The notes: generated from the letters alone by a model not told the origin. Shown: positions 38,467 to 64,000, numbered from the stretch's first letter. The stretch is DNA of 64,000 nucleotides from a virus (IMGVR_UViG_3300048625_000025:1-64000), one strand, 5' to 3'. Numbers and translations are program-made.

Positions 38467-39552
38467 ATGAACAAATACGAACAGTTGATTGAATACATCA
38501 TCAACGATCAAGAAGACAAAGCCCGCGAATTATTTCACAACATCGTTGTTGAAAAGAGCCGCGACATTTACGAAAGCCTAATGGACGAAGACCAAGTTGA
38601 TGAAAACATCGACCAGTACGACCAACAAGGTGACTTAGCTGCTGACATCCAGAACGATGAAAACGGTGGACTAGGTGAAGGCGACGAAGAAATGGACGAC
38701 ATCGAATTAGACGGTGGCGATGATATGGGCAACGACGACGGTTTCGGCGGCGACGAGTTCGGTGGTGCCGACTTAGGTGGTGACGACATGGGCGGCGAAG
38801 GCGATGTTGACGGCAAGTTCCAAGACATTAAATCTGCAATCGATGAATTGCAAGCTGAATTTGACAAGCTAATGGGCGGCGAAGGCGATGGCACTAGCGG
38901 CACTGGCTCTGATGAGTTTGGTGGCGAAGAAGGTGGCGACATGGGCGATGAGTTCGGTGGCGAGCCAGAAGTTGGCGCCGAGGAAGAAGAAGAAAGCATG
39001 TACGAAGCAAAAAGCGGTTCTGGTAACCCATTTGCTAAAAAAGGTTCTGGCGTAAGCGGTTCTGGCAAGTCTGGTAGCGGCGCAAGCGGTTCTGGCAAGT
39101 CCGGTTCTGGTAACCCATTTGCTAAAAAGGGTTCCGGCTCTGGTAAAGTAATGTCAGAAACTGAAATGATGCGTGAATACGTAGAAAAGATTTCTGCTCC
39201 TTCTAACACAGAATTTACTCCAGTAGGTACTGGCACTGGTGGCGACAAAGCTGCTGGCCTAACTAAAGGTATCGTTGCTGGTAAGAACGACATGGGTGGT
39301 ACAACTGCTAATATCGCTAAAGGCGGTAGCGAAGCTGCTCCTGATGGACAATCTCCAAAAGGTAAAGCTGGCGGGTTTGTTAAGCCTGCACAAGAAATTG
39401 AAGTTGCTAAACGCAATGTAAACAAAGTTGGTGGTAATAAAGGCGCACAAGACTTTTATGGCACCAAAGCAAAAGCTAAAACTGGCGAAGGCCAAACTAC
39501 TGACGGTTCTGTTCCTGTAAGCAAGAACAGCATCGAAGGTGGTAAGAAGTAA
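38467..39552 (+). CDS. 67: gp67-like prohead core protein, expanded
   Basis: A 361-residue protein whose first 45 residues ('MNKYEQLIEYIINDQEDKA', 'ARELFHNIVVEKSRDIYESL') correspond in pattern to T4 gp67 ('LIEAIKSNDLVAARKLFAEA'), an 80-residue internal prohead core protein cut up by gp21. As in gp67, a very acidic stretch follows (about 50-200, rich in DD, GG, EE). This copy is over four times longer. It has a 'GSGNPFAKKGSG' element twice, separated by glycine/serine/lysine repeats (about 183-230), then a disordered basic tail. Glutamates in LxE/IxE contexts could serve as gp21 cleavage sites. The start is ATG 38467, chosen for its AAAGGA site rather than the TTG at 38449. Identification is by N-terminus, acidity and position before gp21. 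Confidence 0.75.
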   Translation: MNKYEQLIEYIINDQEDKARELFHNIVVEKSRDIYESLMDEDQVDENIDQYDQQGDLAADIQNDENGGLGEGDEEMDDIELDGGDDMGNDDGFGGDEFGGADLGGDDMGGEGDVDGKFQDIKSAIDELQAEFDKLMGGEGDGTSGTGSDEFGGEEGGDMGDEFGGEPEVGAEEEEESMYEAKSGSGNPFAKKGSGVSGSGKSGSGASGSGKSGSGNPFAKKGSGSGKVMSETEMMREYVEKISAPSNTEFTPVGTGTGGDKAAGLTKGIVAGKNDMGGTTANIAKGGSEAAPDGQSPKGKAGGFVKPAQEIEVAKRNVNKVGGNKGAQDFYGTKAKAKTGEGQTTDGSVPVSKNSIEGGKK

Positions 39553-39565
39553 TTAGGGCAATAAT

Positions 39566-40204
39566 ATGGCTTTGTACCTAAAAGAGAACTTAACTTTTGA
39601 CCGAGCAGGTCTTCAGATTATTTCCGAAGACTCTGCTGACGGGAAGGGTAAGAATCTCTATATGAAAGGGATATTCATCGAGGGAGGCGTAAAGAACGCT
39701 AACCAACGTGTTTATCCCGTTCATGAAATCGGAAAAGCTGTGGAAACCATCAATGAGCAAATCAAGGGTGGTTATTCAGTCCTGGGCGAAGTGGATCATC
39801 CAGACGACCTAAAGATCAACTTGGACCGTGTGTCCCACATGATTGAACAAATGTGGATGGACGGACCATGCGGCTACGGAAAACTAAAAGTCTTGCCAAC
39901 TCCAATGGGTAAACTTGTGGAAGCAATGATTACCAGCGGTGTTAAGCTAGGTGTTAGTTCTCGTGGTAGCGGAAACGTAAACGAAAGCAGTGGTCATGTT
40001 AGTGATTTTGAAATCATTACTGTGGACATTGTTGCCCAGCCAAGTGCTCCTCACGCCTATCCTAAAGCAATTTACGAAGGTTTGATGAACATGCGAGGCG
40101 GCAATCGAATTTTTGAGATGGCGAAAGATGCCACTCAAGATCAAAAAGTGCAAAAGCACCTGAGAGAAGCTATGACAAGCTTCATCAAAGACCTTAAGAT
40201 ATAA
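39566..40204 (+). CDS. 21: Prohead maturation protease gp21
   Basis: A 212-residue serine protease, the same length as T4 gp21. It is assembled inside the prohead and cleaves scaffold, core and capsid proteins after a glutamate (LxE/IxE). The catalytic His is in 'LGEVDHPDD' (H78), the nucleophile region is 'LGVSSRGSGN' (S131/S132), and a conserved 'DIVAQPSAPHAYP' follows. The N-terminal 'LKENLTFDRAGLQII' is also typical. It lies between the gp67-like and gp22 genes exactly as in T4. Confidence 0.95.
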   Translation: MALYLKENLTFDRAGLQIISEDSADGKGKNLYMKGIFIEGGVKNANQRVYPVHEIGKAVETINEQIKGGYSVLGEVDHPDDLKINLDRVSHMIEQMWMDGPCGYGKLKVLPTPMGKLVEAMITSGVKLGVSSRGSGNVNESSGHVSDFEIITVDIVAQPSAPHAYPKAIYEGLMNMRGGNRIFEMAKDATQDQKVQKHLREAMTSFIKDLKI

Positions 40205-40218
40205 CAGGAGAAAACCTA

Positions 40219-41325
40219 ATGTTAGATGCTATCAAACCATTGCTAGACAGCGGCATTATTAACGAAAGCACTCAAACGGCTATTAACGAAGCATGGGAAG
40301 CACGTCTTTCCGAAGCTAAGGAAACAGTACGTGCAGAGCTTCGTGAAGAATTTGCACAACGCTATCAGCATGACAAACAAGTCATGGTAGAGGCTCTAGA
40401 CAAAATGGTAACAGAAAGTCTTACTGCTGAATTAGCTGAATTCCAAGAAGAAAAGCAAGCCCTTGCTGAAGACCGTGTGAAATTTAAACGTCACATGAGC
40501 GAAAGCGCAGGCAAGTTTAACTCTTTCATGGTAAGCAAGCTAAGTGAAGAAATTCAAGAGTTACGTAGTGACCGCAAGGTTTACGAAAACTCTATCGGCA
40601 AGTTAGAAAACTTTGTGATCAAGGCGTTAGCCGAAGAACTAAAAGAATTTGAACAAGACAAACAAGCAGTCGTTGAAACTAAAGTCCGCTTAATTGCTGG
40701 TGCTAAAGAGAAGATGGCAGAGCTACAACAGCAATTTATTGCACGTAGTTCTACACTTGTTAAAGAAGCTGTTGCTAAGAATTTAGAGTCAGAGTTGACT
40801 CAACTAAAAGAAGACATCCAAATTGCTCGTGAGAACATGTTCGGTCGTCGACTATTTGAAGCTTTCGCTAGTGAATTCAGCGTTACTCACTTAAATGAGA
40901 ACAAAGAAATTCAAAAGCTACAATCTGCATTGACACAAACTAAGCAACAAGTTGCTGAGTCTCGTCGTGCTGCTGAAGAAGCTGCAATGATCGTTGAATC
41001 AAAAGAAAAAGAGATTCGTGTAATCAAAGAAAGTTCGGAACGTAGCCAGTTAATGGCAAACTTGATGAAACCTTTGAGTCGAGAGAAGGCCGCAGTTATG
41101 AGCGAACTTCTAGAGAGCGTGCAAACTGCTAAGTTGCAGGGCGCATACGAAAAGTATCTTCCAGCTGTACTAAATAACAAAGCGACTGTCGCTACACCTG
41201 CTCCACAAAAGCAAGTAATGACAGAGAGCCGAGTTGAAGTTACTGGAGATAAGGCTGCTAAAATTGCTGCGGACCGAGTAGACACAAATGTGATCGACTT
41301 GAAGCGTTTAGCAGGGCTAAAATAA
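40219..41325 (+). CDS. 22: Prohead core scaffold protein gp22
   Basis: A 368-residue, almost wholly helical coiled-coil protein rich in E, K, Q and A. It is the major scaffold around which the capsid forms and which gp21 later degrades. T4 gp22 is 269 aa. Between gp21 and gp23 the assignment is secure by order. Typical elements are 'ESLTAELAEFQEEKQALAED', 'FGRRLFEAFASEFSVTHLNE' near residues 213-232, and the C-terminal 'KAAKIAADRVDTNVIDLKRL' (each at or under twenty residues). Several LxE and IxE sites fit gp21 cleavage. AGGAG precedes the ATG. Confidence 0.92.
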   Translation: MLDAIKPLLDSGIINESTQTAINEAWEARLSEAKETVRAELREEFAQRYQHDKQVMVEALDKMVTESLTAELAEFQEEKQALAEDRVKFKRHMSESAGKFNSFMVSKLSEEIQELRSDRKVYENSIGKLENFVIKALAEELKEFEQDKQAVVETKVRLIAGAKEKMAELQQQFIARSSTLVKEAVAKNLESELTQLKEDIQIARENMFGRRLFEAFASEFSVTHLNENKEIQKLQSALTQTKQQVAESRRAAEEAAMIVESKEKEIRVIKESSERSQLMANLMKPLSREKAAVMSELLESVQTAKLQGAYEKYLPAVLNNKATVATPAPQKQVMTESRVEVTGDKAAKIAADRVDTNVIDLKRLAGLK

Positions 41326-41352
41326 TAAACCCTAATTAGGAGAAATGACATT

Positions 41353-42528
41353 ATGACAACCGCATTACTAGAGAGCCGTTGGGGCGAAACAAAAGACGCC
41401 CTACTAGAAGGCTTACAAGGTTCGAAGAGAACTACAATGGGCGTGATCTTAGAGAACACCCGTAAACAATTGAGCGAATCTGCAACAGCAGGTGGTACAT
41501 CCGCAGGTAGCGTGGCTACACTTAACCGTGTAATCTTGCCAGTTATCCGTCGCGTTATGCCTACAGTTATCGCTAACGAAATCGTTGGTGTTCAACCAAT
41601 GACAGGCCCAGTGGCTCAGATTCATACACTACGTGTACGTTATGCTGATGGCACAACAGGTCCAGACAGCAGCCAAAATACTGGCGCTGGTGACGAAGCA
41701 TTGAGCCCATTCAAGATTGCTACTCAGTACTCAGGTACAGGTACAACTGGTAAGGCTTCAAGCACAGCTACTTTAGAAGGCGTACCTGGTAACCGTATCA
41801 ACGTACAAATCTTGAAGCAAGTTGTTGAAGCTAAGACACGTAAATTGTCTGCACGTTGGACATTTGAAGCTGCTCAAGACGCACAAGCTATGCACGGTTT
41901 GGACGTTGAAGCAGAAGTTATGGCCGCTTTGGCACAAGAAATCACAGTTGAAATCGACCAAGAGATCCTAGGTTCTCTACGTTCATTGGCAGCTACTGAA
42001 TTCACATTCAACCAAGCTACTGTATCTGGTACAGCTACATTCGTTGGTGACGAGCACGCTGCTTTGGCAGTATTGATCAACCGCGCAAGCAACTTGATCG
42101 CTCAACGCACACGTCGTGGTGCTGGTAACTGGGCAGTTGTGTCTAGTGCTGCTTTGACAGTATTGCAATCTGCTACAACTAGCGCATTTGCACGTACTAC
42201 AGAAGGTACATTCGAAGCTCCTACAAACACTAAGTTTGTTGGTACATTGAACGGTGCAATGAAGATTTATGTTGACGGCTATGCCCAAGACGGACAATCT
42301 GTATTGGTTGGTTACAAAGGTTCGAGCGAAGCTGATGCAGCAGCGTTCTATTGCCCATACGTACCATTGATGAGCTCTGGTGTTGTTCTAGACCCAAGCA
42401 CATTCGAACCAGTAGTTGGCTTCATGACCCGTTACGGTTATGTTGAGTTGACAAACACAGCTAGCTCATTGGGCAACGCTGGTGACTACTTGGCAGAAAT
42501 CGCTGTAAGCAACTTGAGCTTCCAGTAA
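41353..42528 (+). CDS. 23: Major capsid protein gp23
   Basis: A 391-residue HK97-fold capsid protein. T4 gp23 is 521 aa, so this form lacks the extra insertion domain, as in many more distant T4-like phages. Recognisable blocks: 'LNRVILPVIRRVMPTVIANE' (residues about 57-76), 'GVQPMTGPVAQIHTLRVRY', 'KTRKLSARWTFEAAQDAQAM', 'GLDVEAEVMAALAQEITVEI' and 'GYKGSSEADAAAFYCPYVPL'. The N-terminal propeptide contains candidate gp21 sites, such as after 'ILE' and after 'QLSE' near residue 40. It has an AGGAG ribosome site, and the downstream intrinsic terminator closes the head cluster. Confidence 0.96.
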   Translation: MTTALLESRWGETKDALLEGLQGSKRTTMGVILENTRKQLSESATAGGTSAGSVATLNRVILPVIRRVMPTVIANEIVGVQPMTGPVAQIHTLRVRYADGTTGPDSSQNTGAGDEALSPFKIATQYSGTGTTGKASSTATLEGVPGNRINVQILKQVVEAKTRKLSARWTFEAAQDAQAMHGLDVEAEVMAALAQEITVEIDQEILGSLRSLAATEFTFNQATVSGTATFVGDEHAALAVLINRASNLIAQRTRRGAGNWAVVSSAALTVLQSATTSAFARTTEGTFEAPTNTKFVGTLNGAMKIYVDGYAQDGQSVLVGYKGSSEADAAAFYCPYVPLMSSGVVLDPSTFEPVVGFMTRYGYVELTNTASSLGNAGDYLAEIAVSNLSFQ

Positions 42529-53120: not shown

Positions 53121-56100
53121 ATGGCAAACGGAAATTTTGTAGTACACAATGGGCTTACAGTTGGCCTAGCAAACATCGATGCAACAACTGGATCAATTTA
53201 CAGTGATCATCACTTGTTCACTAATGGTGCGTCTATTGTTACAAGTATTAGTAACACTGCTGATATCTCGGCTAATGCAACTGTCGGCCCAGAAGTTGGA
53301 TTAAGTTTAAACACAACTGGCGTATCAGCTGGCATTTACGGCTCTGCCACTCTTGTACCGACTATCGTTGTTGATAGCAAAGGTCGACTTACTGCGGTAA
53401 CTACAAACACAGCCGTTACTACATTTGGATTAATTGGCACTGGCGGAACAGGGTCAGTTACTAGCGGCGGATCATTATCGTTTGCGAGTACAAATGGCGT
53501 ATCGGTTGTCGCAAGTGGTAGCACGTTGACAATCTCTAATCAACAAGATTTGCGAACCACAGGATCAGTAACATTCGCAAATCTTACAATAACTAACGCA
53601 ACACTGTCTGGCGGCACACTCTCGTCGGCTGGTACAGTAACTATATCAAACAGTCAATCGAGTACCAGTACTACCACTGGCGCAATGACTGTTGCTGGCG
53701 GAGCCGGCATTGGTGGCGCACTATATACTGGTGGCCCAATCAATAATGGCGGAATACTATTTAACATTGGAAACATTGTAGCGGCCAGCGGAACAACAAG
53801 TACTAATACCACAACTGGTGCATTAGTAGTACAAGGCGGTGCAGGTATTAGTGGCGCGGTATACGCAGGGTCGGTATTCGATTCGGGCAACCGTGTGGTA
53901 AGCACTAGCAGTGGCACGGGCAACTTAACAATTAGCGGTGCAAGCATTGCATTAACAGCAACGGGCCCCGGAGCAACAACAGTTGGTAGCTCAAGTGCTA
54001 TCCCTGTTATCACAACTGATGCGTATGGTCGTGTAACATCATTAACTACTGCAAGTATTAGCACCACATTAAGTACTAGTGGCACAACTGGTACAGGCAC
54101 AGTGGCATTGGCAAGCCAATCACTTGCTATTACAGGCGGAACTGGTATTACCACAAGCGCAAGTGGACAAGCAATCACAATTACCAACGCTGGCGTAACT
54201 TCACTGGCAAGCAGCGGCGCAGGCAATGTAACAGTGTCATCATCTACTGGTGCAATTACTTTATCATTACCGGCAACAGGCCCCGGAGCAACAACAGTTG
54301 GTAGCTCAAGTGCTATCCCTGTTATTACAACCGATGCGTATGGTCGCATAACTGCTTTAAGCACAGCAAGCATTAGCACCACTCTTGATATTGCTGGTAC
54401 TACAGGTACTGGTGCAGTAGCATTGGCGAGCCAGTCACTGACATTCTCAAGCACTAATGGATTTGTTTCTGCCGTAAGCGGAACTAACGTAAGCCTTTCG
54501 AGTCCTCAAGATTTACGCACAACAGCATCACCGCAATTTGCGGGAATCACTACAAACGGTCCCGCACAAGTTAATGGTACATTGGGCGTAACTGGTATAA
54601 CCACTATCACTGACAATACTACTAGCACAGGCAGTGGTAACGGCGCATTGGTTGTAACAGGCGGCGTTGGGGTCGGAGGTACACAATACATCGGCGGTGA
54701 CCTTCACGTAGTTGGTAATGTATACACGCCGAACCTAATTGCGATCAGCACCAGTACATTAAGCACAAGTAGCCCGATGGTATACTTCCAAGGAAGTCCA
54801 TTCCCGTATAACTTTGAAACCGGGTTCTACGGTCACTTTGTTGGTGGCGCATCTAACGTGTATGCGCATACTGGTTTTGTGCGTAACCATAATAATAACC
54901 ACTGGACATTGTTTAGTAACGTGGCTAGTGAACCAACTGCAACTACTATCAATTTTACAGATCCTGGCCTTATCTACGACACACTAGATCTTGGATCAAT
55001 TAACATTCTAGATATCACTCCGAGCACAACAGTGGACTCGGGTGCATTGGTTGTAACGGGCGGTGTCGGTATCAGTGGAGCAATCAACGTAAACGGCGCA
55101 GCATACTTTGGTTACCAAGCTAGCAACACCCTATTAACTAACCCGAGTATTATTGCCACACAATCAAGTCAAGCACTAGATGCAGGACAGTTCTTTGTGC
55201 AAACAGCATTGATCAACACAAACGCTACAGGCTCGGCAGATATTGTGGCATATCCAAACAACACCACTGATGGTGTTACTGGATTTATGGACATGGGCTT
55301 CACTGGCAACTTGTTTGCAGATCCTGCATATACTATCACTAACGCCAATGATGGTTATTTGTTTGCTAGTGCCGGTGCCGATTCGGGACTAGGCGGCAAT
55401 TTGGTATTAGCAACAGATCATACGGGGGCTTATGGAGACATTGTTGTTGCAACTGGCAGTTTCTTTGCCAACGCAGAAGTTGCACGTTTCCACGGTAATG
55501 CAAGCAATGGCGGATACCTAGCACTGAAACAAGGAACAGCAGCAACTAATACCACAACCGGCGCATTACGTGTAACAGGTGGCGTTGGTGTAAGTGGCAG
55601 TTTATATGCAGGCGGAGTATATACCAACAGTTTAAACTTTGCGAACGGTAGCCCATTCACATCGACTACGTTAGCCAACACTAGCGATATTACTGCTAAC
55701 ATTCCGAGCGGTGCAAATGCAGGATTGAGCTTAACAGCAACTGGTGTAGCAGCCGGTAACTACGGATCTGCAACAAGTATTCCTACTATTGTAGTTGACA
55801 GCAAAGGTCGCGTATCTAGTATCACAACCAATGCTATCTCTAGCTCATTGACATTAACTGGTGATGTAACAGCAAGTGGATCACTAAGTGGATCAATCTC
55901 TGCAACACTAGCAGCAAGTGGGGTAACCGCTGGCGTATATGGTAGTGCAACTAGCATCCCGACTATCACCGTTGATAGCAAAGGCCGCGTGACCAGCGTA
56001 ACTAGCAACGCAGTAAGCACAACTATTTCTTTAGCTGGCACAAGTGGGTCAGGCACAGTAGCAGGTGGTGGCACATTAACTGTTGCTGGTGGCACAGGTA

Positions 56101-57164
56101 TCACTACTGCAATTTCTGGATCTACTGTAACCGTTACAAACAGCGGAGTTACTGCATTATCAAGTTCGGGCGCAGGCAATCTAACTGTTTCGGCATCCAC
56201 TGGATCAGTTGCAGTAACCTTGCCAACAACGGGCCCGGGTGCAACCACAGTGGGTAGCACAACTACTATTCCGGTTATTACAACCGATGCGTATGGTCGT
56301 GTTACTGCGTTAACTACTGCAAGCATTACCTCATCTGGATTCTCGCTAGCTGGCACAAGTGGCACAGGATCAGTCGCTGGCAGCGGCACGCTAACTTTTG
56401 CGAGTACCAATGGTGTAACTGCAACAGCAAGTGGCAGCACTATTACTATTAATGATCCGCAAGATATTAGAACAAGTGCAAGCCCAACCTTTGCTGGTGG
56501 TGCATTTACTGGAAACGTAACCCGTTCGAGCAGACCATTGATTACCAACTTCTCTGGTAATACCGCTCCGGCAAACCCAATCCAGGGCGATGAATGGTTC
56601 CGTGGTAACACTGGTACTATGTACAAATATGTTTACGATAACGTAAGTAGCACCTACAACTGGCTAAACATCAGCAGCGCATTATTTAACGCAGCTACTA
56701 CAGCAACAGCTAACACACTAGCATTGCGCGATGGATCGGCTAACTTAACAGCAGCTAACTTCATTGGTTTAGCGAGCAGCGCAAAATACGCTGACTTGGC
56801 AGAAAACTACGCAAGTGATCAATCATACGAGCCTGGTACAGTGGTTGTGTTCGGCGGCGAAGAAGAAATTACAGCAACTAACTTGTCACATGACACTAGA
56901 GTAGCAGGTGTGATTTCTACTAACCCAGCTTACTTAATGAACAGCGAAGCAATTGGTTTACCGGTTGCGTTTACCGGACGTGTTCCGTGTAAAGTAGTTG
57001 GTATCGTAAATAAAGGTGATATTCTAGTTACATCTGGTATTCCTGGTGTAGCTCAAAGAATGGAGACTGCACTATATAAACCTGGTTGCATTATTGGTAA
57101 GGCACTAGGTGAAAACAGAACTAACAACATAGCTACTATTGAAGTAGTAGTAGGGAGATTTTAA
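53121..57164 (+). CDS. Repetitive tail fibre protein (1,347 aa) with conserved C-terminal domain
   Basis: A 1,347-residue fibre. Repeats include 'GPGATTVGSSSAIPVITTDA' followed by 'YGRVTSLTTASIS', present three times (near 53960, 54280 and 56230), and 'GVSAGIYGSATLVPTIVVDS' followed by 'KGRLTAVTT', also three times. The module 'SADIVAYPNNTTDGVTGFMD' to 'AEVARFHGNASNGGYLALKQ' (about 55130-55620) matches the preceding fibre. The C-terminal 130 residues ('KYADLAENYASDQSYEPGTV', 'RVAGVISTNPAYLMNSEAIG', 'GRVPCKVVGIVNKGDILVTS') form a conserved end domain of fibres in T4-like marine phages, perhaps an autoproteolytic or trimerising cap. Its stop overlaps the next ATG (TAATG), so translation is coupled with the S74-type fibre. 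Confidence 0.85.
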   Translation: MANGNFVVHNGLTVGLANIDATTGSIYSDHHLFTNGASIVTSISNTADISANATVGPEVGLSLNTTGVSAGIYGSATLVPTIVVDSKGRLTAVTTNTAVTTFGLIGTGGTGSVTSGGSLSFASTNGVSVVASGSTLTISNQQDLRTTGSVTFANLTITNATLSGGTLSSAGTVTISNSQSSTSTTTGAMTVAGGAGIGGALYTGGPINNGGILFNIGNIVAASGTTSTNTTTGALVVQGGAGISGAVYAGSVFDSGNRVVSTSSGTGNLTISGASIALTATGPGATTVGSSSAIPVITTDAYGRVTSLTTASISTTLSTSGTTGTGTVALASQSLAITGGTGITTSASGQAITITNAGVTSLASSGAGNVTVSSSTGAITLSLPATGPGATTVGSSSAIPVITTDAYGRITALSTASISTTLDIAGTTGTGAVALASQSLTFSSTNGFVSAVSGTNVSLSSPQDLRTTASPQFAGITTNGPAQVNGTLGVTGITTITDNTTSTGSGNGALVVTGGVGVGGTQYIGGDLHVVGNVYTPNLIAISTSTLSTSSPMVYFQGSPFPYNFETGFYGHFVGGASNVYAHTGFVRNHNNNHWTLFSNVASEPTATTINFTDPGLIYDTLDLGSINILDITPSTTVDSGALVVTGGVGISGAINVNGAAYFGYQASNTLLTNPSIIATQSSQALDAGQFFVQTALINTNATGSADIVAYPNNTTDGVTGFMDMGFTGNLFADPAYTITNANDGYLFASAGADSGLGGNLVLATDHTGAYGDIVVATGSFFANAEVARFHGNASNGGYLALKQGTAATNTTTGALRVTGGVGVSGSLYAGGVYTNSLNFANGSPFTSTTLANTSDITANIPSGANAGLSLTATGVAAGNYGSATSIPTIVVDSKGRVSSITTNAISSSLTLTGDVTASGSLSGSISATLAASGVTAGVYGSATSIPTITVDSKGRVTSVTSNAVSTTISLAGTSGSGTVAGGGTLTVAGGTGITTAISGSTVTVTNSGVTALSSSGAGNLTVSASTGSVAVTLPTTGPGATTVGSTTTIPVITTDAYGRVTALTTASITSSGFSLAGTSGTGSVAGSGTLTFASTNGVTATASGSTITINDPQDIRTSASPTFAGGAFTGNVTRSSRPLITNFSGNTAPANPIQGDEWFRGNTGTMYKYVYDNVSSTYNWLNISSALFNAATTATANTLALRDGSANLTAANFIGLASSAKYADLAENYASDQSYEPGTVVVFGGEEEITATNLSHDTRVAGVISTNPAYLMNSEAIGLPVAFTGRVPCKVVGIVNKGDILVTSGIPGVAQRMETALYKPGCIIGKALGENRTNNIATIEVVVGRF

Positions 57165-58150
57165 TGGCTTTTCCAGTAAGTCCCACAAACGGACAAACAT
57201 ACACAAACAACAACGTCACCTACGTATATGATGCAGGTATGGGCGTATGGGATCCACAAGGTTCTGTTGCTACAGCTAGCCCTGTGCAAAGCGTTGCGGG
57301 TAGAACGGGCGCAGTTACATTAACCGCAGCAGATATTGGCGCAGGCACATTCCCTGGCGCCATTTCCATGGCAAGTACTCTTACTGTGTCAGGCGCAATA
57401 AGTGGACCCGGTACTGGGTTAACTGGCACAGCAGCTGGGTTGAGCATTGGCGGAACAGCCGCGTCAGCAACATCAGCAACTACTGCAACTAACCTAAGTG
57501 GTGGCTCAGTTAGTGCAACAACAGTTACAGCCAGTGGTGCAGTAACATCAGGTGGTAACAGCGGATTCAATAATGCAGTATACTTCAGTGGGGCCAGGAA
57601 CCCAATTTGGTATTTTGGTAATGCGTCAACATACGGTATCAGTTATTTTCAAGGTACTGCGGGCATTGGTAGCGCAGACACAATTGGTATTCATCCAAAC
57701 GGCACCGCTTCGGCCGCTGGGGCGACATTGGGAATTTCAACAAACGGGGTATATTCAATTGTTCCTCTTGCAGTAACTGGTGCAATTACTGCAACCACAA
57801 CAGTTACAGCTTATTATTCCGATGAACGATTGAAGACAAAGATTAGTAAGATTGAAAATGCGCTAGATAAAGTAGATCAACTAAGTGGCTTCTTGTATGT
57901 AGAAAACGATCTAGCCAGGGAACTTGGATTTAACAATACCACACAACAGGTTGCCCTAAGTGCTCAAGCTGTTCAACGAGTACAACCAGAAGCAGTGGCG
58001 TTAGCACCATTTGACAGAGATGTAAATGGCAACAGCAAGAGTGGAGAAAACTACTTAACTGTGCAGTACGAACGACTAGTTCCTTTATTAGTAGAAGCAA
58101 TTAAAGAATTGCGTCAAGAAGTAAATACAATTAAGAAACAACTCAAATAA
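57164..58150 (+). CDS. Tail fibre with C-terminal S74 intramolecular chaperone
   Basis: A 328-residue fibre protein. The N-terminus ('FPVSPTNGQTYTNNNVTYVY') and the glycine/alanine/threonine-rich repeats to about residue 215 form the shaft. Residues about 218-328 match the peptidase S74/endosialidase chaperone domain: 'YYSDERLKTKISKIENALDK' includes the conserved Ser-Asp pair at the cleavage site, followed by 'AQAVQRVQPEAVALAPFDRD' and 'LTVQYERLVPLLVEAIKELR', then a C-terminal coiled coil. Such domains help trimer folding and cut themselves off. It is coupled to the preceding fibre gene by a one-base stop/start overlap. Confidence 0.9.
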   Translation: MAFPVSPTNGQTYTNNNVTYVYDAGMGVWDPQGSVATASPVQSVAGRTGAVTLTAADIGAGTFPGAISMASTLTVSGAISGPGTGLTGTAAGLSIGGTAASATSATTATNLSGGSVSATTVTASGAVTSGGNSGFNNAVYFSGARNPIWYFGNASTYGISYFQGTAGIGSADTIGIHPNGTASAAGATLGISTNGVYSIVPLAVTGAITATTTVTAYYSDERLKTKISKIENALDKVDQLSGFLYVENDLARELGFNNTTQQVALSAQAVQRVQPEAVALAPFDRDVNGNSKSGENYLTVQYERLVPLLVEAIKELRQEVNTIKKQLK

Positions 58151-58153
58151 ACT

Positions 58154-58813
58154 ATGGCAGTATCAATTGACAACAGCGGACTAACATTCAGCGATGGCTC
58201 TAAACAAAACGGGTCACCTACATCCAACAACGACTATGGTCAATTAGTCTCTATTACCACTTTTACAGCCAGCGGCACATATACTGCGCCAACTCCGTGT
58301 AGGAAACTATTGGTTAAAGTACATGGCGCAGGCGGTGGCGGCGCCGGACATTTTGAGAGCGGTGGCGCAGGCGGTTACGCAGAACGATTAATTCATGCAA
58401 TAAGCCCTGGACAGACATTTGCAGTTACAGTAGGTGGCGGTGGCGGCGGGGTTGGATATTACGCAGCAGGCGGCACAGGTGGTACCAGCAGTTTTGCGGG
58501 ATTGGTTACGGCCACTGGAGGCTACGGAGCAAACGCAAACTACAGTCATACTGGCGGACATGGCGGAACTGGTTCAGGCGGCCAAATAACAATCGCAGGC
58601 GGCGGCGGCGTGGGCCACACAAACGGATTCGGGGCATATGGCGCCCGAGGGGTTAGTGGATACTACGGTGGTGGCATGGGAACACGACATAGCGGTGGCG
58701 AACAAATTGGTCCAGGCGCACCAGGCGCGGGTGCCAGTGGCGGAACGACTAGTAACGCCGGCAGCGGCAAAACAGCAGCAGCCGGCATTATTGTAGTATA
58801 TGCTTACTCTTAA
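58154..58813 (+). CDS. Glycine-rich adhesin-like protein, copy 1
   Basis: A 219-residue protein. The N-terminal 45 residues ('VSIDNSGLTFSDGSKQNG') are an attachment segment shared with the next two genes. A small beta domain ('FTASGTYTAPTPCRKLLVKV') and a glycine-rich body follow ('GAGGGGAGHFESGGAGGYAE', 'GGGGGGVGYYAAGGTGGTSS', with later GGHGGTGSGG). The protein ends in hydrophobic 'GIIVVYAYS'. Glycine-rich proteins of this build in aquatic phages are reminiscent of the polyglycine-helix tips of T4-type gp38 adhesins, so receptor recognition at the fibre tip is the probable role. It starts three bases after the S74 fibre stop. Confidence 0.75.
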   Translation: MAVSIDNSGLTFSDGSKQNGSPTSNNDYGQLVSITTFTASGTYTAPTPCRKLLVKVHGAGGGGAGHFESGGAGGYAERLIHAISPGQTFAVTVGGGGGGVGYYAAGGTGGTSSFAGLVTATGGYGANANYSHTGGHGGTGSGGQITIAGGGGVGHTNGFGAYGARGVSGYYGGGMGTRHSGGEQIGPGAPGAGASGGTTSNAGSGKTAAAGIIVVYAYS

Positions 58814-58821
58814 GGAATAAT

Positions 58822-59478
58822 ATGGCAATTACATTAGGTGCAAGCGGCATTACGTTTAGTGATGGATCTTCTCAAACAACAACGTACTCTGACAGAGGTC
58901 AGCCGATTAGTATTCAGATGTTTACATCAACGGGTACATATACCGTTCCGGCTAACTGTACTCGATTATTAGTGCAGGTACAAGGAGGTGGTGGCGGCAG
59001 TGCTGGCTACTGTGAAAGCGGTGGTGCTGGCGGCTACGCAGAAGGCACATACGCAGTCTCTCCGGGTGCAACATATACAGTAACAATTGGAGGTGGAGGT
59101 GGTGGCGTTGGATATTATGCAGCGGCCGGTTCAGGTGGCACAACTAGCTTTGGGTCATTGTTGTCGGCCTCGGGTGGGCACGGGGCAAATAATAACTCCA
59201 GCCATGGCGGCGGACATGGCGGTAACAGCTTTGGTGGAGCACAACTGTCAACCGTTGGCGGAACAGGTGCAGGCCACGGAAATTCAGCAAGTCATGCAGC
59301 AACAGCAGGTGGTGGCGCCAGTTTCTTTGGTGGAACTGGTGTATACAATAGGGGTTCCACAACTGCAACAAATAACGGACCAGCATGGGGATCAGGCGCA
59401 ACTGGTGGACGTACAAATGACGGCGGCGCCGGAACCACTGGCACAGCTGGAGTATGCGTAATAATCGCATACACATAA
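58822..59478 (+). CDS. Glycine-rich adhesin-like protein, copy 2
   Basis: A 218-residue paralogue of its neighbours. It opens 'MAITLGASGITFSDGSSQ' and has the beta segment 'FTSTGTYTVPANCTRLLVQV', then 'GGGGSAGYCESGGAGGYAEG' and 'GGGGGGVGYYAAAGSGGTTS'. The region from about 125 to 200 (GGHGGNSFGG, 'ATAGGGASFFGGTGVY') differs from copy 1 much more than the first 120 residues do, as expected if the outer loops define receptor choice. It ends 'GVCVIIAYT'. AAGGA precedes the ATG. It is almost the same length as copy 1. Confidence 0.75.
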   Translation: MAITLGASGITFSDGSSQTTTYSDRGQPISIQMFTSTGTYTVPANCTRLLVQVQGGGGGSAGYCESGGAGGYAEGTYAVSPGATYTVTIGGGGGGVGYYAAAGSGGTTSFGSLLSASGGHGANNNSSHGGGHGGNSFGGAQLSTVGGTGAGHGNSASHAATAGGGASFFGGTGVYNRGSTTATNNGPAWGSGATGGRTNDGGAGTTGTAGVCVIIAYT

Positions 59479-59487
59479 GGATAAAAC

Positions 59488-60207
59488 ATGGCAGTAACAT
59501 TAGGTGCAAGCGGCATTACATTTAGTAATGGAACAACGCAGACTTCACGATTAAATGGTGGCCTCGCGCTCAACGGGTCGGACCGCGGCGATTTAATTGA
59601 TATCCAGGCATTTAGGCAAAGTGGGACGTGGACTAATCCCGGCGCAACAGTAGTACATGTCAAATTAGTCGGCGGCGGCGGCGGCGGAGCCGGCTATTGC
59701 GAAAGCGGTGGCGCCGGGTGTTATGCAGAAAACGTTTTTGGCGTAAGTGGCGTAGGATCGGTTGCAGTCACAGTGGGCGGCGGCGGCAGCTATGCTGCTT
59801 ACTACTCAGCAGCAGGTCAAGGCGGTACAAGCAGCTTTGGTACATATATGAGCGCTATCGGCGGATATGGGGCTAATCAACAATACAGCCACAGCGGCGG
59901 CCATGGTGGTAATAGTGCGTCGGGTCAAGCAGTGCATGTACAAGGCGGCGGAGGTTGGGGACACACCAACAGCGTTGGTCATGGATCACTTAGCTCGCTA
60001 GGCGGCGCAAGCTATTTTGGCGGAGCACAGGCGCACATACGAAATCACAGTAACCTAGGATGGAACGTGCAACACGGTATATCCACTGGCGCCCCGGGCA
60101 CCGGTGGCCCTGGCAACGTAACAGATTGGGGATACCAGCACCCACGTGGCCACAGTGCTGGTGAATACGGACAAGCTGGATTAGTTATAGTTTACGCTTA
60201 TAGATAA
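59488..60207 (+). CDS. Glycine-rich adhesin-like protein, copy 3
   Basis: A 239-residue paralogue. It opens 'MAVTLGASGITFSNGTTQTS', nearly identical to copy 2, then diverges with a longer linker ('GGLALNGSDRGDLIDIQAF'). The glycine body is 'GGGGGGAGYCESGGAGCYAE' and 'GGGGSYAAYYSAAGQGGTSS', with the distal variable part 'GGASYFGGAQAHIRNHSNLG'. It ends 'GLVIVYAYR'. AAGGA precedes the ATG. The three copies form a tandem family of probable alternative or co-assembling fibre tips. Confidence 0.75.
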   Translation: MAVTLGASGITFSNGTTQTSRLNGGLALNGSDRGDLIDIQAFRQSGTWTNPGATVVHVKLVGGGGGGAGYCESGGAGCYAENVFGVSGVGSVAVTVGGGGSYAAYYSAAGQGGTSSFGTYMSAIGGYGANQQYSHSGGHGGNSASGQAVHVQGGGGWGHTNSVGHGSLSSLGGASYFGGAQAHIRNHSNLGWNVQHGISTGAPGTGGPGNVTDWGYQHPRGHSAGEYGQAGLVIVYAYR

Positions 60208-60224: not shown

Positions 60225-60647
60225 ATGACATTACGAGCACTTTTACATAACACAGAACAAGGTCGAATTTGCGAAATTCGAGAAATTGGGGAAGAATTTG
60301 AAGTACACACAGATTTTCAATGGGTTGACGTCCCCGATGGAACAACCACACACGATTTATACAACGAAGATGGTACCATTACCAAATTTGATATTACTAA
60401 GCTGCCGGGTTTTGCAGAAACAGCTTACCAGGTTGCTAGAGGTATTGCATATACTCCAGTAGGAAACCAAATGGATATGCTTTTTAAAGAGCTACAGGCT
60501 ACAGGTACGATAAGTAATAGTGGGCCCTGGGCAACGCACATTGCTAGTGTTAAAGCAGCGATTCCGAAAGATGATCCGCAAGCAGTATACGAGTGGAACT
60601 TGCGACATTGGGAATCAATTCAAGCAGGTATGCAGGGCAATATTTAA
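60225..60647 (+). CDS. Small protein following the adhesins, possible fibre-associated
   Basis: A 140-residue soluble protein. The N-terminal half is beta-like ('ICEIREIGEEFEVHTDFQWV') and the C-terminal half helical, including 'PVGNQMDMLFKELQATG' and 'WATHIASVKAAIPKDD'. A 'GNQMDMLFKEL...W..HI..VKAAIPK' pattern recurs in small phage proteins encoded next to tail fibres, where the family resembles tail or fibre-assembly proteins. I cannot assign a function. It has a strong AAGGA site and is followed after 14 bases by the enzyme cassette. Confidence 0.7.
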   Translation: MTLRALLHNTEQGRICEIREIGEEFEVHTDFQWVDVPDGTTTHDLYNEDGTITKFDITKLPGFAETAYQVARGIAYTPVGNQMDMLFKELQATGTISNSGPWATHIASVKAAIPKDDPQAVYEWNLRHWESIQAGMQGNI

Positions 60648-60661
60648 CCCTAAGGTGATTT

Positions 60662-61888
60662 ATGGATTTCAATAAACGGTTTTCGGTCGCACATTACGAT
60701 CGATTTCATGGTGAACACGCTGGCGTATTTTATGAAACAATGAAAAATGCCGACCCAAAGTACTTGGCAAATTTGCACGATGTGTACTTTGGAAAATTCT
60801 TCTATTATGAATACAATGGTCAACAAAAACGCTGCGGCAACCCAATGGGCGTTGAAGCAAGCGACGAGCAAATTGATTATTTGTTCAAGCTACAAGAAGA
60901 AACCGGTGTCGAAATCAGCTTAACATTTAATACAGTTGAAGTGCCTCACGAAGTTGCTTTTGATCAATCAGTAAGAGATCAATTTGTAGAATGGATTGGC
61001 GGCTATTACGATCGCGGCCTGCGTAGTTGCACAATGAGCAGCGAACATATCCTACGCATGGGTATCCTACAACAGCGTTGCCCTGACATGCGTTGGAAAA
61101 GCACAGTGAACCAAATTGTAGCTGACGCACAGCAGTTCATTGATTACGCATACTTGGGCTACAATACTATTCTATTAGATCGTAGTTTGAACCGTAACAT
61201 CCGCGAACTAAAGCGCATCAAAAGGGCACAGGATTACTTAAACAGTCTCAATCCGCAGAAGAAGTTAATGACAAGTTTGCTGGTTGCTGAGGCTTGTATC
61301 TATCACTGCCCGTTTAAGAAAGAGCATGACAGTGTTGGTGAAGTAATTGGTACTGAGTATTTTAAAAGCATTGCAGATTTAAGTTGTAATGGCTGGAGAC
61401 AACATCAAGACTTTGCAGCTCTCCCACGCAGCGGAATTAATTTAGTAGCAGGGCAAGCAGATACATTTAAAGAGTTTGCAGAGCTAGTGGATATTTTTAA
61501 ATATTCAGGGCGACTAACTGCTCCAATGTTTAAACCAGAAGATGCCAAATACATGAAAGCATGTTGGTACTACGACGATGTTAACAAGTTTAAGCAAAGT
61601 ATTAGCTTTGTGGGGAAAACTGTTTATGCAGACGACTTTAACGAAGTAATTGACAATAACGCAGGTCCAATGCACAACTGGATCCCTGGTTGGATTGACA
61701 CTCGACATACCAAAGAAGACTTTAAAACTACCTATAAGCCGTACACAGGAATTTGGGCAACTGATCCGGGTAAACGACTGGAAAAGATTTTGCGCACATG
61801 TCGCAATCAGTGCTGGGACTGTCACGAATGTGAGCGCACATTTGGTATGCAGGATGTTGATTCTGCTCTGCAAATTAGAAAGCAATAA
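60662..61888 (+). CDS. Unknown protein, possibly U32-peptidase-like TIM barrel with Fe-S cysteines
   Basis: A 408-residue cytosolic protein I do not recognise with certainty. Its middle ('WKSTVNQIVADAQQFIDYAY', 'LGYNTILLDRSLNRNIRELK', 'SLLVAEACIYHCPFK') resembles the layout of U32-type proteins (UbiU/UbiV, TrhP relatives): a half barrel, a 'G...I.LDR.LNR' strand, then a CxxxCP cluster. The C-terminus adds 'CRNQCWDCHECERTFGMQDV', four cysteines that could bind a metal or iron-sulfur cluster. U32-family proteins act in hydroxylation of tRNA or ubiquinone precursors. The neighbours are a 2OG oxygenase and a halogenase, and its TAA overlaps the oxygenase ATG, so these three likely work in one oxidative modification pathway. 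The family link is tentative. Confidence 0.7.
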   Translation: MDFNKRFSVAHYDRFHGEHAGVFYETMKNADPKYLANLHDVYFGKFFYYEYNGQQKRCGNPMGVEASDEQIDYLFKLQEETGVEISLTFNTVEVPHEVAFDQSVRDQFVEWIGGYYDRGLRSCTMSSEHILRMGILQQRCPDMRWKSTVNQIVADAQQFIDYAYLGYNTILLDRSLNRNIRELKRIKRAQDYLNSLNPQKKLMTSLLVAEACIYHCPFKKEHDSVGEVIGTEYFKSIADLSCNGWRQHQDFAALPRSGINLVAGQADTFKEFAELVDIFKYSGRLTAPMFKPEDAKYMKACWYYDDVNKFKQSISFVGKTVYADDFNEVIDNNAGPMHNWIPGWIDTRHTKEDFKTTYKPYTGIWATDPGKRLEKILRTCRNQCWDCHECERTFGMQDVDSALQIRKQ

Positions 61889-62484
61889 TGTCTGACATAC
61901 AGATCTTTGATAAAATAATCCCACAAGGGTATGCAGATCAAATTGAATTTGATGTAACCAGTACCCCATTTCCGTGGCACTACATCAATGATGTCACTAA
62001 CAAGAGCTACGGCAATAATTCTGGCATGGTACATCTTGCGTATGACCTTGGCGCAAATCCAAGCGAGTGGTTTCCGTTCATTAAGCCAATTGTATATGCA
62101 ATCACTGAAGCAGCAGGTCACACTATCGAGCAACTGTTACGCATTAGAATTGGATATCTAAGTCAAACACTCAAAGAAGGATATGATCATAATACTCCGC
62201 ACGTGGACTTCACAATGCCACACTATACTGCATGTTACTACATCAGTGATAGCGACGGAGACACAGTGATATTTGACCAAACACTTGCAGAAATACAAGA
62301 ATCAAATATCACTGAGCAGGCACTTTATGATTTTGTGGCAAACAATAAATTTACTGTAGCCCAACGTTGCAGTCCAAAGAAAGGTCGTGTTTGCGTATTT
62401 GATGGTCTTAGATTCCATGCAAGCACTAAGCCAGCAGAGCATGACAGACGATTAGTAATCACAATAAACTACATAGCGAGATAA
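61888..62484 (+). CDS. 2-oxoglutarate/Fe(II)-dependent oxygenase
   Basis: A 198-residue protein with the double-stranded beta-helix iron-binding triad: H105 and D107 in 'NTPHVDFTMPHYTACYYIS', and the distal H177 in 'DGLRFHASTKP', followed by the oxoglutarate-binding arginine region 'HDRRLVITINY'. The length is typical of small phage prolyl-4-hydroxylase-like oxygenases, which are common in aquatic T4-like phages with mostly unknown substrates. It overlaps the upstream gene by one base and is followed one base later by the halogenase start, so the three form a tight unit. Confidence 0.85.
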   Translation: MSDIQIFDKIIPQGYADQIEFDVTSTPFPWHYINDVTNKSYGNNSGMVHLAYDLGANPSEWFPFIKPIVYAITEAAGHTIEQLLRIRIGYLSQTLKEGYDHNTPHVDFTMPHYTACYYISDSDGDTVIFDQTLAEIQESNITEQALYDFVANNKFTVAQRCSPKKGRVCVFDGLRFHASTKPAEHDRRLVITINYIAR

Positions 62485-62485
62485 A

Positions 62486-64000
62486 ATGCACCATAACGTA
62501 AAATCAATTACCATCGTGGGCGGTGGATCAAGTGGATGGATGACAGCGGCGGCAATAGCCAGGCTTCTACCTAACATTAAGCTAACTCTCATTGAGAGTC
62601 CTAACATTCCTATCATTGGTGTGGGCGAAAGTACCATCGGACATATTAATCAATATCTGGCATTAATTGGCATTAAGGACGAAGACTGGATGGCAGCATG
62701 TAATGCAACATATAAGACCAGTATCAAGTTCATTGACTTTAGAGAAAACCCAAAGGAGGAGCCGCACAAGTTTCATTATCCTTTTGGCATCTTAGATTTC
62801 ACAGATAAACCTCGCGGCCCAATGGAATGGTTCCTAGCAGCAGCCGACCGTGGTAATCTTGATCCCAGCAACTTTGCAGAGTTTTATCACGACAGCATAT
62901 TAATGACGGATAAGAATAAAATGACACGAAACGAGGATTACAAAATTCGTGGGTTTAATTTTAGTGAAGACACAGCATATCACATGGATGCCACCTTATT
63001 TGGCGCATGGCTTAGAGATAATCTGTGCTTGCCGAGTGGGATGACGCACTTACTAGATACAGTAACTGATGTTGTGCAGAGAGAAGATGGATCAATTGAA
63101 AAAATTGGGACAGAGAACAGTGGATATCTAGAAGCAGACTTGTTTATTGATTGCACTGGATTTAAGAGTCTGCTATTAGAGCAAACTCTCAAAGAGCCAT
63201 TCACTAGCTTCCATGACACACTGTTAAATGACAGAGCGATTGCTACAGTCATTCCGTATATTGACAAAGAAGCAGAAATGGAAAACTATACATCATGCAC
63301 TGCTATTGAGTGCGGATGGGTATGGAACATTCCGCTATGGAATCGCATCGGCACAGGCTATGTGTACAGCAGCAAACATGCCACTGAAGAAGAAGCAGAA
63401 GCGCAGTTTCGCAAACATCTAAAGAGCAATCGCATGATGTTTCCGGACGCAGAGCGAGCAGAATCATGCGAAGTGCGACACATTAAGATCAAGCACGGTG
63501 TTCATGAGCGTGCATGGGTTAAAAACGTAGTGGGCATCGGTCTTGCTAATGGCTTCATTGAGCCACTGGAAAGTACAGGACTGATGCTAACACACGAAGG
63601 CATTGTTAAATTATGCAATACTCTGTTAATGCGTAACGGCATTGTTAGTAACTACGATGTTGATTTGTTTAACTATGGATTCCAAGAACAGATTCTAGGA
63701 TTCAAAGACTTTATTAGTCAGCACTATGCACTAAGCTGTCGTAACGATACTCCGTACTGGAAAGAAGTTACAGGCGATTTAACGTATTCACGAGCGATGG
63801 GCGGGACTATTAACTTGTCTGGATTGGCACACGATGTACGATCTGCATCTGACTTGGGTATGCGTATGCACCGCACTCGAACATTTGATAACAACATGGG
63901 CGGGATTTTGTATATTGCAGCAGGGCAGGGATACAATCCCGTGGAGCCAAATTATATAAGATATGAGGATGTGAGACGTCACGAGTCGCCTGAACTTCGA
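62486..64000 (+). CDS. Flavin-dependent (tryptophan-type) halogenase, 3' end beyond window
   Basis: An open frame of 505 codons from ATG 62486 to the end of the window without a stop. It matches the tryptophan halogenase family: FAD-binding GGGSSGW at residues 12-18, 'IGVGESTIGHIN' (44-55), the active-site lysine in 'ATYKTSIKF' (K77, equivalent to Lys79 of PrnA), the diagnostic WxWxIP motif 'GWVWNIPLW' (W278, W280, P283) and 'GFIEPLESTGL' with E362/S363, equivalent to Glu346/Ser347 of PrnA. These enzymes use FADH2, oxygen and halide to halogenate aromatic substrates. A phage-encoded member (VirX1, from a cyanophage) has been characterised. All catalytic residues are present, so an active enzyme is likely. 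Substrate unknown. A host or phage flavin reductase would be required. Confidence 0.92.
   Translation, partial: MHHNVKSITIVGGGSSGWMTAAAIARLLPNIKLTLIESPNIPIIGVGESTIGHINQYLALIGIKDEDWMAACNATYKTSIKFIDFRENPKEEPHKFHYPFGILDFTDKPRGPMEWFLAAADRGNLDPSNFAEFYHDSILMTDKNKMTRNEDYKIRGFNFSEDTAYHMDATLFGAWLRDNLCLPSGMTHLLDTVTDVVQREDGSIEKIGTENSGYLEADLFIDCTGFKSLLLEQTLKEPFTSFHDTLLNDRAIATVIPYIDKEAEMENYTSCTAIECGWVWNIPLWNRIGTGYVYSSKHATEEEAEAQFRKHLKSNRMMFPDAERAESCEVRHIKIKHGVHERAWVKNVVGIGLANGFIEPLESTGLMLTHEGIVKLCNTLLMRNGIVSNYDVDLFNYGFQEQILGFKDFISQHYALSCRNDTPYWKEVTGDLTYSRAMGGTINLSGLAHDVRSASDLGMRMHRTRTFDNNMGGILYIAAGQGYNPVEPNYIRYEDVRRHESPELR

Follow-up and report, generated by a model that had tools for sequence, protein, structure and literature searches.

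A U32-like protein and a flavin-dependent halogenase encoded behind the fibre-tip genes of a jumbo phage: a candidate module for tip modification

Why should a phage carry a halogenase gene directly behind the genes for its receptor-binding fibre tips? The question is raised by a 64,000-nucleotide stretch of viral DNA (IMGVR_UViG_3300048625_000025:1-64000; hereafter the window, the first 64,000 bases of a 76,315-bp virus record) that ends in three plus-strand genes. A preliminary description, made from the sequence by itself, read these as an oxidative modification cassette consisting of a Cys-rich protein (ORF A, 60662..61888, 408 aa), a 2-oxoglutarate (2OG)-Fe(II) oxygenase (61888..62484) and a halogenase (62486..64000, with its end near 64108 in the parent record). 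Both the three reading frames and their tight junctions are confirmed. Read directly, ORF A and the oxygenase gene overlap by 1 nt at 61888 (TAATG), the oxygenase and halogenase genes are separated by 1 nt at 62485 (TAA-A-ATG), and the three genes are translationally coupled. Similar junctions, mostly of -4 or -1 nt and also of +1, recur in dozens of related contigs, and the tight spacing is therefore not due to chance. We put at about even the chance that the cassette is a module that modifies residues of the receptor-binding tail-fibre tip.

The last gene of the cassette specifies, by its sequence, a flavin-dependent halogenase in which every family motif is kept and activity is predicted. 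Its product matches Pfam family PF04820 at 2e-109; the closest solved relative is VirX1 from cyanophage Syn10 (6QGM, 3.8e-143 over the full length), with Thal, RebH and PrnA behind. The motifs pointed out in the preliminary description are all present and conserved among 56 homologues. The GxGxxG dinucleotide-binding (FAD) loop reads GGGSSG at 12-17 (kept in 55/56), the catalytic Lys77, aligned with that of VirX1, occurs in all 56, the WxWxIP motif reads WVWNIP at 278-283, and the active-site residues Glu359 and Glu362-Ser363 are in place. The catalytic lysine is required in Thal (PMC7948982). The gene overruns the end of the window and is complete in the parent record (L002 2487-4109), where it encodes 540 aa. 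In a tree of 88 phage halogenases, the ORF A-coupled enzymes form a single clade with a Shimodaira-Hasegawa-like approximate likelihood ratio (SH-aLRT) support of 99, which includes an ORF A-free early branch (L077) and is sister to the clade containing VirX1 (SH-aLRT 94 for the joint branch); this is a quick tree, and a few of its branches, all outside the ORF A/VirX1 part, are very long and uncertain in position. As neither of the two flavin reductase families searched for, PF01613 and PF03358, is found in the 354-kb record of this phage (see below), host supply of reduced flavin is assumed.

The middle gene was correctly described as a 2OG oxygenase. The AlphaFold2 model of its product (predicted local distance difference test, pLDDT, 90.6) gives 420 Foldseek matches in the PDB at E <= 0.001, and the best among those listed are 2OG enzymes with a double-stranded beta-helix: SnoN, PolD, PHD2 and P4H. 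The HxD...H facial triad (His105/Asp107/His177) is invariant in the homologues and Arg188 is, by position, the 2OG-binding Arg. Because the triad Asp is present, the sequence points to an enzyme of the hydroxylase type, not of the Fe-halogenase type. Fold and triad are shared with PHD2/EGLN1, P4H and SnoN, but the sequence is distant from all solved structures, and a profile search against PDB sequences returned no match. The protein scores 22.1 bits against a Pfam gathering cut-off of 27, a curated threshold tied to no defining residue; a relative in S-RIM44 passes the cut-off. It belongs to phage family phrog_274 (2.7e-38). The label of this family (also T4-GC 100), "DNA endonuclease V (denV)", is ruled out for the window protein by fold and triad; it is an erroneous annotation now found across many RefSeq cyanophage records.

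Profiles and a fold model place ORF A, most probably, on a divergent branch of the U32 family that has its own arrangement of cysteines. Direct searches gave little: no match to PF01136, none to PDB sequences by profile, no significant hhalign or BLAST match to E. coli UbiU, UbiV, TrhP or RlhA, and Pfam/NCBIfam matches (Cas6_I-A at 0.015, Scabin-like) that were rejected as being at chance level. The best PDB fold for the AlphaFold2 model (pLDDT 85.8; predicted template modelling (TM) score 0.87) is the U32 peptidase Mk0906 (5d88; E 2.4e-6, TM 0.64 on the target) at 10% identity, with other TIM barrels close behind. The protein is placed in the U32 family because of a chain of profiles through cellular intermediates. 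These were sought in 297 genomes from the phylum of a metagenome-assembled genome (MAG) that has a 48%-identical ORF A homologue (L096). Ten distant homologues were found, which have in common, like ORF A, a CxxxC...H motif, one more Cys and a C-terminal Cx3Cx2Cx2C; several of the ten are over the PF01136 cut-off. In hhalign comparisons ORF A matches this group with 99.4% probability (E 1e-21), and the group matches UbiU/UbiV/TrhP/RlhA with 97.7% (E 2e-12). Nine of the 11 cysteines of ORF A are invariant in 41 homologues; the layout comprises CxxxCP...H (C212, C216), C242 and the C-terminal Cx3Cx2Cx2C (C380-C384-C387-C390). The U32 proteins characterised so far are [4Fe-4S] proteins involved in hydroxylation (PMC6747719), and by analogy ORF A is a predicted Fe-S hydroxylase. 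Its conserved cysteines occupy the region of the barrel that holds the cluster in the U32 family, but the protein stays below PF01136 and its CxxxC(25)C plus C-terminal Cx3Cx2Cx2C differs from the standard CX6CX15CX3/4C motif, from which UbiV likewise departs (PMC6747719). The earlier guess of a U32-type Fe-S protein is thus supported by the fold search and the profile chain, with the Fe-S cluster as a prediction.

ORF A matches are found in 123 phage records, some in other settings. P-SSM4 PSSM4_035 (L093 7971-9536) joins an ORF A-like domain to a C-terminal stretch that reads as SAM-methyltransferase-like from the sequence, with no family match; a 2OG oxygenase of the window oxygenase's family follows it, and more than 100 cyanophages have hypothetical proteins matching PSSM4_035. 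The chromosomal homologue in the proteobacterial MAG (L096 5986-7242) lies among sensor-kinase and multihaem cytochrome genes, and another contig of this MAG encodes a Gly_rich_2 protein.

Which members of the cassette belong together? Among 54 related ORF A loci, the halogenase gene is in every case the next gene behind ORF A or behind the oxygenase gene; four of these loci were located via the halogenase, so the unbiased count, from the ORF A query alone, is 50/50. The order and overlap of ORF A and halogenase are kept across loci at 60-100% identity. The oxygenase is an optional member, present in 27/54 loci and missing in 27/54, and the VirX1 clade lacks the U32-like gene. An obligate trio was accordingly rejected: in related phages one partner of the halogenase, or both, can be missing, the very observation that the preliminary description had named as speaking against its three-gene pathway. 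In the ORF A clade, the U32-like gene and the halogenase are the sole constant pair.

The second constant feature lies upstream. All on the plus strand of the window, a tail fibre protein with a chaperone-type C-terminal domain (57164..58150; PHROGs tail fiber families, best 1e-25) is followed by three glycine-rich fibre-tip proteins and a small YorD/XkdW-like gene (60225..60647; phrog_1787, 5e-21), whose product probably serves in fibre-tip assembly or as a chaperone. Tip 1 (58154..58813) matches Gly_rich_2 (PF21722, 3.6e-8) and is about 50% identical to tip 3; tip 2 (58822..59478) is 54% identical to tip 3; tip 3 (59488..60207), the proposed substrate, matches phrog_863 "tail fiber assembly" (1e-33) and PF21722 (2.9e-7). 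No solved relative of the Gly-rich tip was found by sequence. A YorD-like gene and a Gly-rich tip stand immediately upstream in 37/37 informative loci, which bears out the hunch, voiced at the outset, that the place behind receptor-binding genes matters.

This arrangement extends beyond the ORF A clade. The order Gly-rich tips, YorD-like gene, halogenase is the same in the VirX1 clade, and VirX1 itself (Syn10 CPUG_00131, identical to 6QGM) is one of the genes behind Gly-rich tips. Taking 83 non-redundant phage halogenases together, 57 have a Gly-rich ORF within 2.6 kb on the same strand, 19 have none and 7 are cut by contig ends; the background, measured in three whole genomes, is 4-12% of all ORFs within this distance. 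The association recurs in separate lineages. In the S-SRM01 lineage the halogenase lies between the fibre and a "gp37-gp38 adhesin tip complex"; in the L082-L089 lineage a Gly-rich ORF ends beside it; in actinobacterial phage DSL-LC01 it lies behind collagen genes; and in P-SSM2 it is found beside L-shaped-fibre assembly genes, though there the Gly-rich criterion failed. Among 50,697 phage records, all 19 with a relative of the S-CREM1 tip have a VirX1-clade halogenase, as do 20 of the 21 with a relative of the S-CREM1 YorD-like gene.

Isolates of S-RIM44 display the block as a unit. In KX349291 the interval between fibre and gp13 holds three tips, a YorD-like gene, two halogenases and an array of oxygenases (two PF13759, one PF13640 and one JmjC_2 enzyme; PF08007, 4.7e-19, also annotated in S-CREM1). 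Enzymes of the JmjC_2 family are known to hydroxylate His or Arg of proteins. In KX349295 the whole block is absent and replaced by a few short genes; relative to KX349291 its downstream flank is 95-98% identical and the upstream fibre has diverged. Record-level matches in KU594607, KX349292 and KX349297 show no tip and only a distant Syn1-type halogenase. The VirX1-type contigs L135, L137, L140, L141 and L148 have a further, distant halogenase, encoded in the opposite direction behind the oxygenase array.

These distributions bear on the published view of such enzymes. In the open-access literature searched, phage halogenases are explained by metabolism or host protection and 2OG oxygenases by DNA repair. 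As auxiliary metabolism, the cassette could act on a free aromatic host compound of an antibiotic-like or protective kind, hydroxylating and halogenating it during infection. A published, speculative account has phage halogenases protecting the host (PMC2984593), a halogenated amino-acid or sugar metabolite has been proposed for S-SSM6a-type clusters (PMC7824862), VirX1 is active on free small aromatics in vitro (PMC8407142), and phage halogenases unlinked to fibres exist. However, the block has no transport, activation or assembly-line genes, and such a role would not lead one to expect the constant place between tip genes and neck/sheath genes, nor the all-or-none co-inheritance with one tip type and the presence or absence of the entire block in S-RIM44. 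We regard this explanation as rather unlikely. Of the two targets first proposed, the virion or surface component agrees with the comparisons far better than the aromatic metabolite: glycine-rich tips are always close by, whereas biosynthetic or transport genes are lacking in the vicinity.

Peptide-acting flavin halogenases, such as MibH and SrpI, exist. The active site of VirX1 is unusually open and accepts bulky substrates (PMC8407142). Together these two points make halogenation of the tip chemically possible. In the mechanism that we propose, the tip proteins (58154-60207) would be produced along with the enzymes and the YorD-like protein; tip side chains would be hydroxylated by ORF A and, in phages that have it, by the 2OG oxygenase; and the VirX1-like halogenase, using reduced flavin from the host, would then halogenate an activated aromatic or imidazole residue. 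The modification could tune receptor binding or the stability of the tip. A tentative proposal, to which we give somewhat less than an even chance, is that phages halogenate their own receptor-binding tip post-translationally, U32-like and 2OG enzymes adding hydroxyl groups; VirX1 and its relatives would have this as their native role.

Candidate residues come from 54 non-redundant halogenase-linked tips of <70% mutual identity. Glu72, Phe117, Asn130, His135 and His159 are invariant in 54/54, and Glu81 and Tyr105 are conserved at 98%; His135, His159 and Tyr105 would be the first to consider. A supposed richness of the tips in Trp was rejected (Trp = 0.9%). Gly_rich_2 proteins without halogenase rarely keep the invariant residues (His135 in 1/7, His159 in 0/7), which speaks for tip modification. 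Several points weigh against it. This control for residue specificity is small, with seven sequences and an uncertain alignment. The invariant His, Tyr and Glu may be structural or metal-binding. Halogenases are not linked to fibres in S-PM2, Syn1, S-H38, S-MbCM6, S-B64, HTVC008M and Campylobacter CP21, and two ORF A phages (L099 and L100) have Gly-rich tips with no halogenase nearby. The counts are phylogenetically non-independent and the loci were partly retrieved by halogenase queries. Synteny alone names no substrate; fibre loci are insertion hot spots, and the enzymes may be mere travellers with the fibre module.

This last possibility, that enzymes of unrelated function sit in a hypervariable fibre locus exchanged as a unit, fits the recombination at such loci and the fluctuating membership of the block, with its oxygenase in only 27 of 54 loci. 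It sits poorly with the order and overlap of ORF A and halogenase in 54/54 loci at 60-100% identity, with the recurrence of the tip-halogenase link in several separate halogenase lineages and with the 19/19 co-occurrence of tip and halogenase, and we think it quite unlikely. The position of ORF A beside Gly-rich fibres in the two phages without halogenase fits a fibre role of ORF A itself. In one of these loci (L100 1901-9242) the glycine-rich tips are also rich in Cys (up to "CSCCCSC") and are accompanied by the ORF A homologue and a NodU-like carbamoyltransferase, while the 9.5 kb examined contain no halogenase. It is a tip-associated block of a variant kind, with a different chemistry.

Does the cassette continue downstream? 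The full halogenase and the genes behind it, whose recovery had been advised as a check, are now in hand and include no constant further member. The coupled run stops after the halogenase; 15 nt on lies an unrelated gene of 245 aa, gene X (L002 4125-4862), fast-evolving, weakly conserved and found in part of the loci only, followed by a NUDIX gene on the opposite strand. Gene X weakly resembles a sialyltransferase (phrog_4603, E 0.0035). This resemblance would suit a target on a host-surface glycan or lipid or a virion sugar, for example for superinfection block or for decoration of the tip with a modified small group. So would the loci of S-SSM7 and L100, where carbamoyltransferase and sugar genes adjoin those of oxygenases and fibres, and the glycosyltransferase that follows the halogenase in DSL-LC01. 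Flavin halogenases, however, require electron-rich aromatics, the constant core has no glycosyltransferase, and gene X shows little conservation and is lacking from many of the loci; a target of this kind appears quite improbable.

The wider genome is that of a jumbo phage. A 354,098-bp IMG/VR contig is otherwise identical to the window, in which 38503-42301 (3.8 kb) bridges the two ends of the contig; this points to a genome of about 358 kb, circular or permuted, and the size follows from the joined ends if the genome is circular. Portal, sheath, sheath-stabiliser, wedge and fibre genes are T4-like (PHROGs). The cassette thus has the fibre tips on one side and, on the other, the opposed NUDIX gene and, behind it, genes for the sheath stabiliser and the sheath. 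Promoter and terminator scans gave results at chance level only. Minus-strand open frames at 53654-54454 and 55760-56626, antisense to a repetitive fibre gene (53121-57164), are probably a by-product of that gene's codon make-up and not genes.

The individual enzymes belong to known families. The window halogenase shares with VirX1 its family, its motifs and its place behind Gly-rich tips and a YorD-like gene, but is 46% identical to it and has a predicted activity; the VirX1 locus differs further in having a second halogenase, a long oxygenase array and no U32-like gene. Cyanophage blocks (syn9 gp41-gp54, S-CREM1, S-RIM44) likewise carry tips, a YorD-like gene, one or more halogenases and oxygenases between fibre and neck genes, whereas in the window version, which is compact, a U32-like enzyme replaces the array and is joined by a single halogenase and a single, optional oxygenase. 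No proposal of fibre halogenation or hydroxylation was found in the open-access literature, subscription papers being mostly outside the search.

Halogenases have been known since the early cyanophage genomes, and VirX1 is a studied biocatalyst, yet the literature searched offers no more than guesses about what they do in infection. Modification of the tip, if true, would answer what viral halogenases are for and would add a new chemistry for tuning phage-host recognition. The fixed partnership with one tip type makes this open question testable, as a halogen and an oxygen on the tip, in three parallel systems: the window type, the VirX1 type and the S-SRM01 type. ORF A, for its part, would extend the U32 family to phages, with a branch of different cysteine layout.

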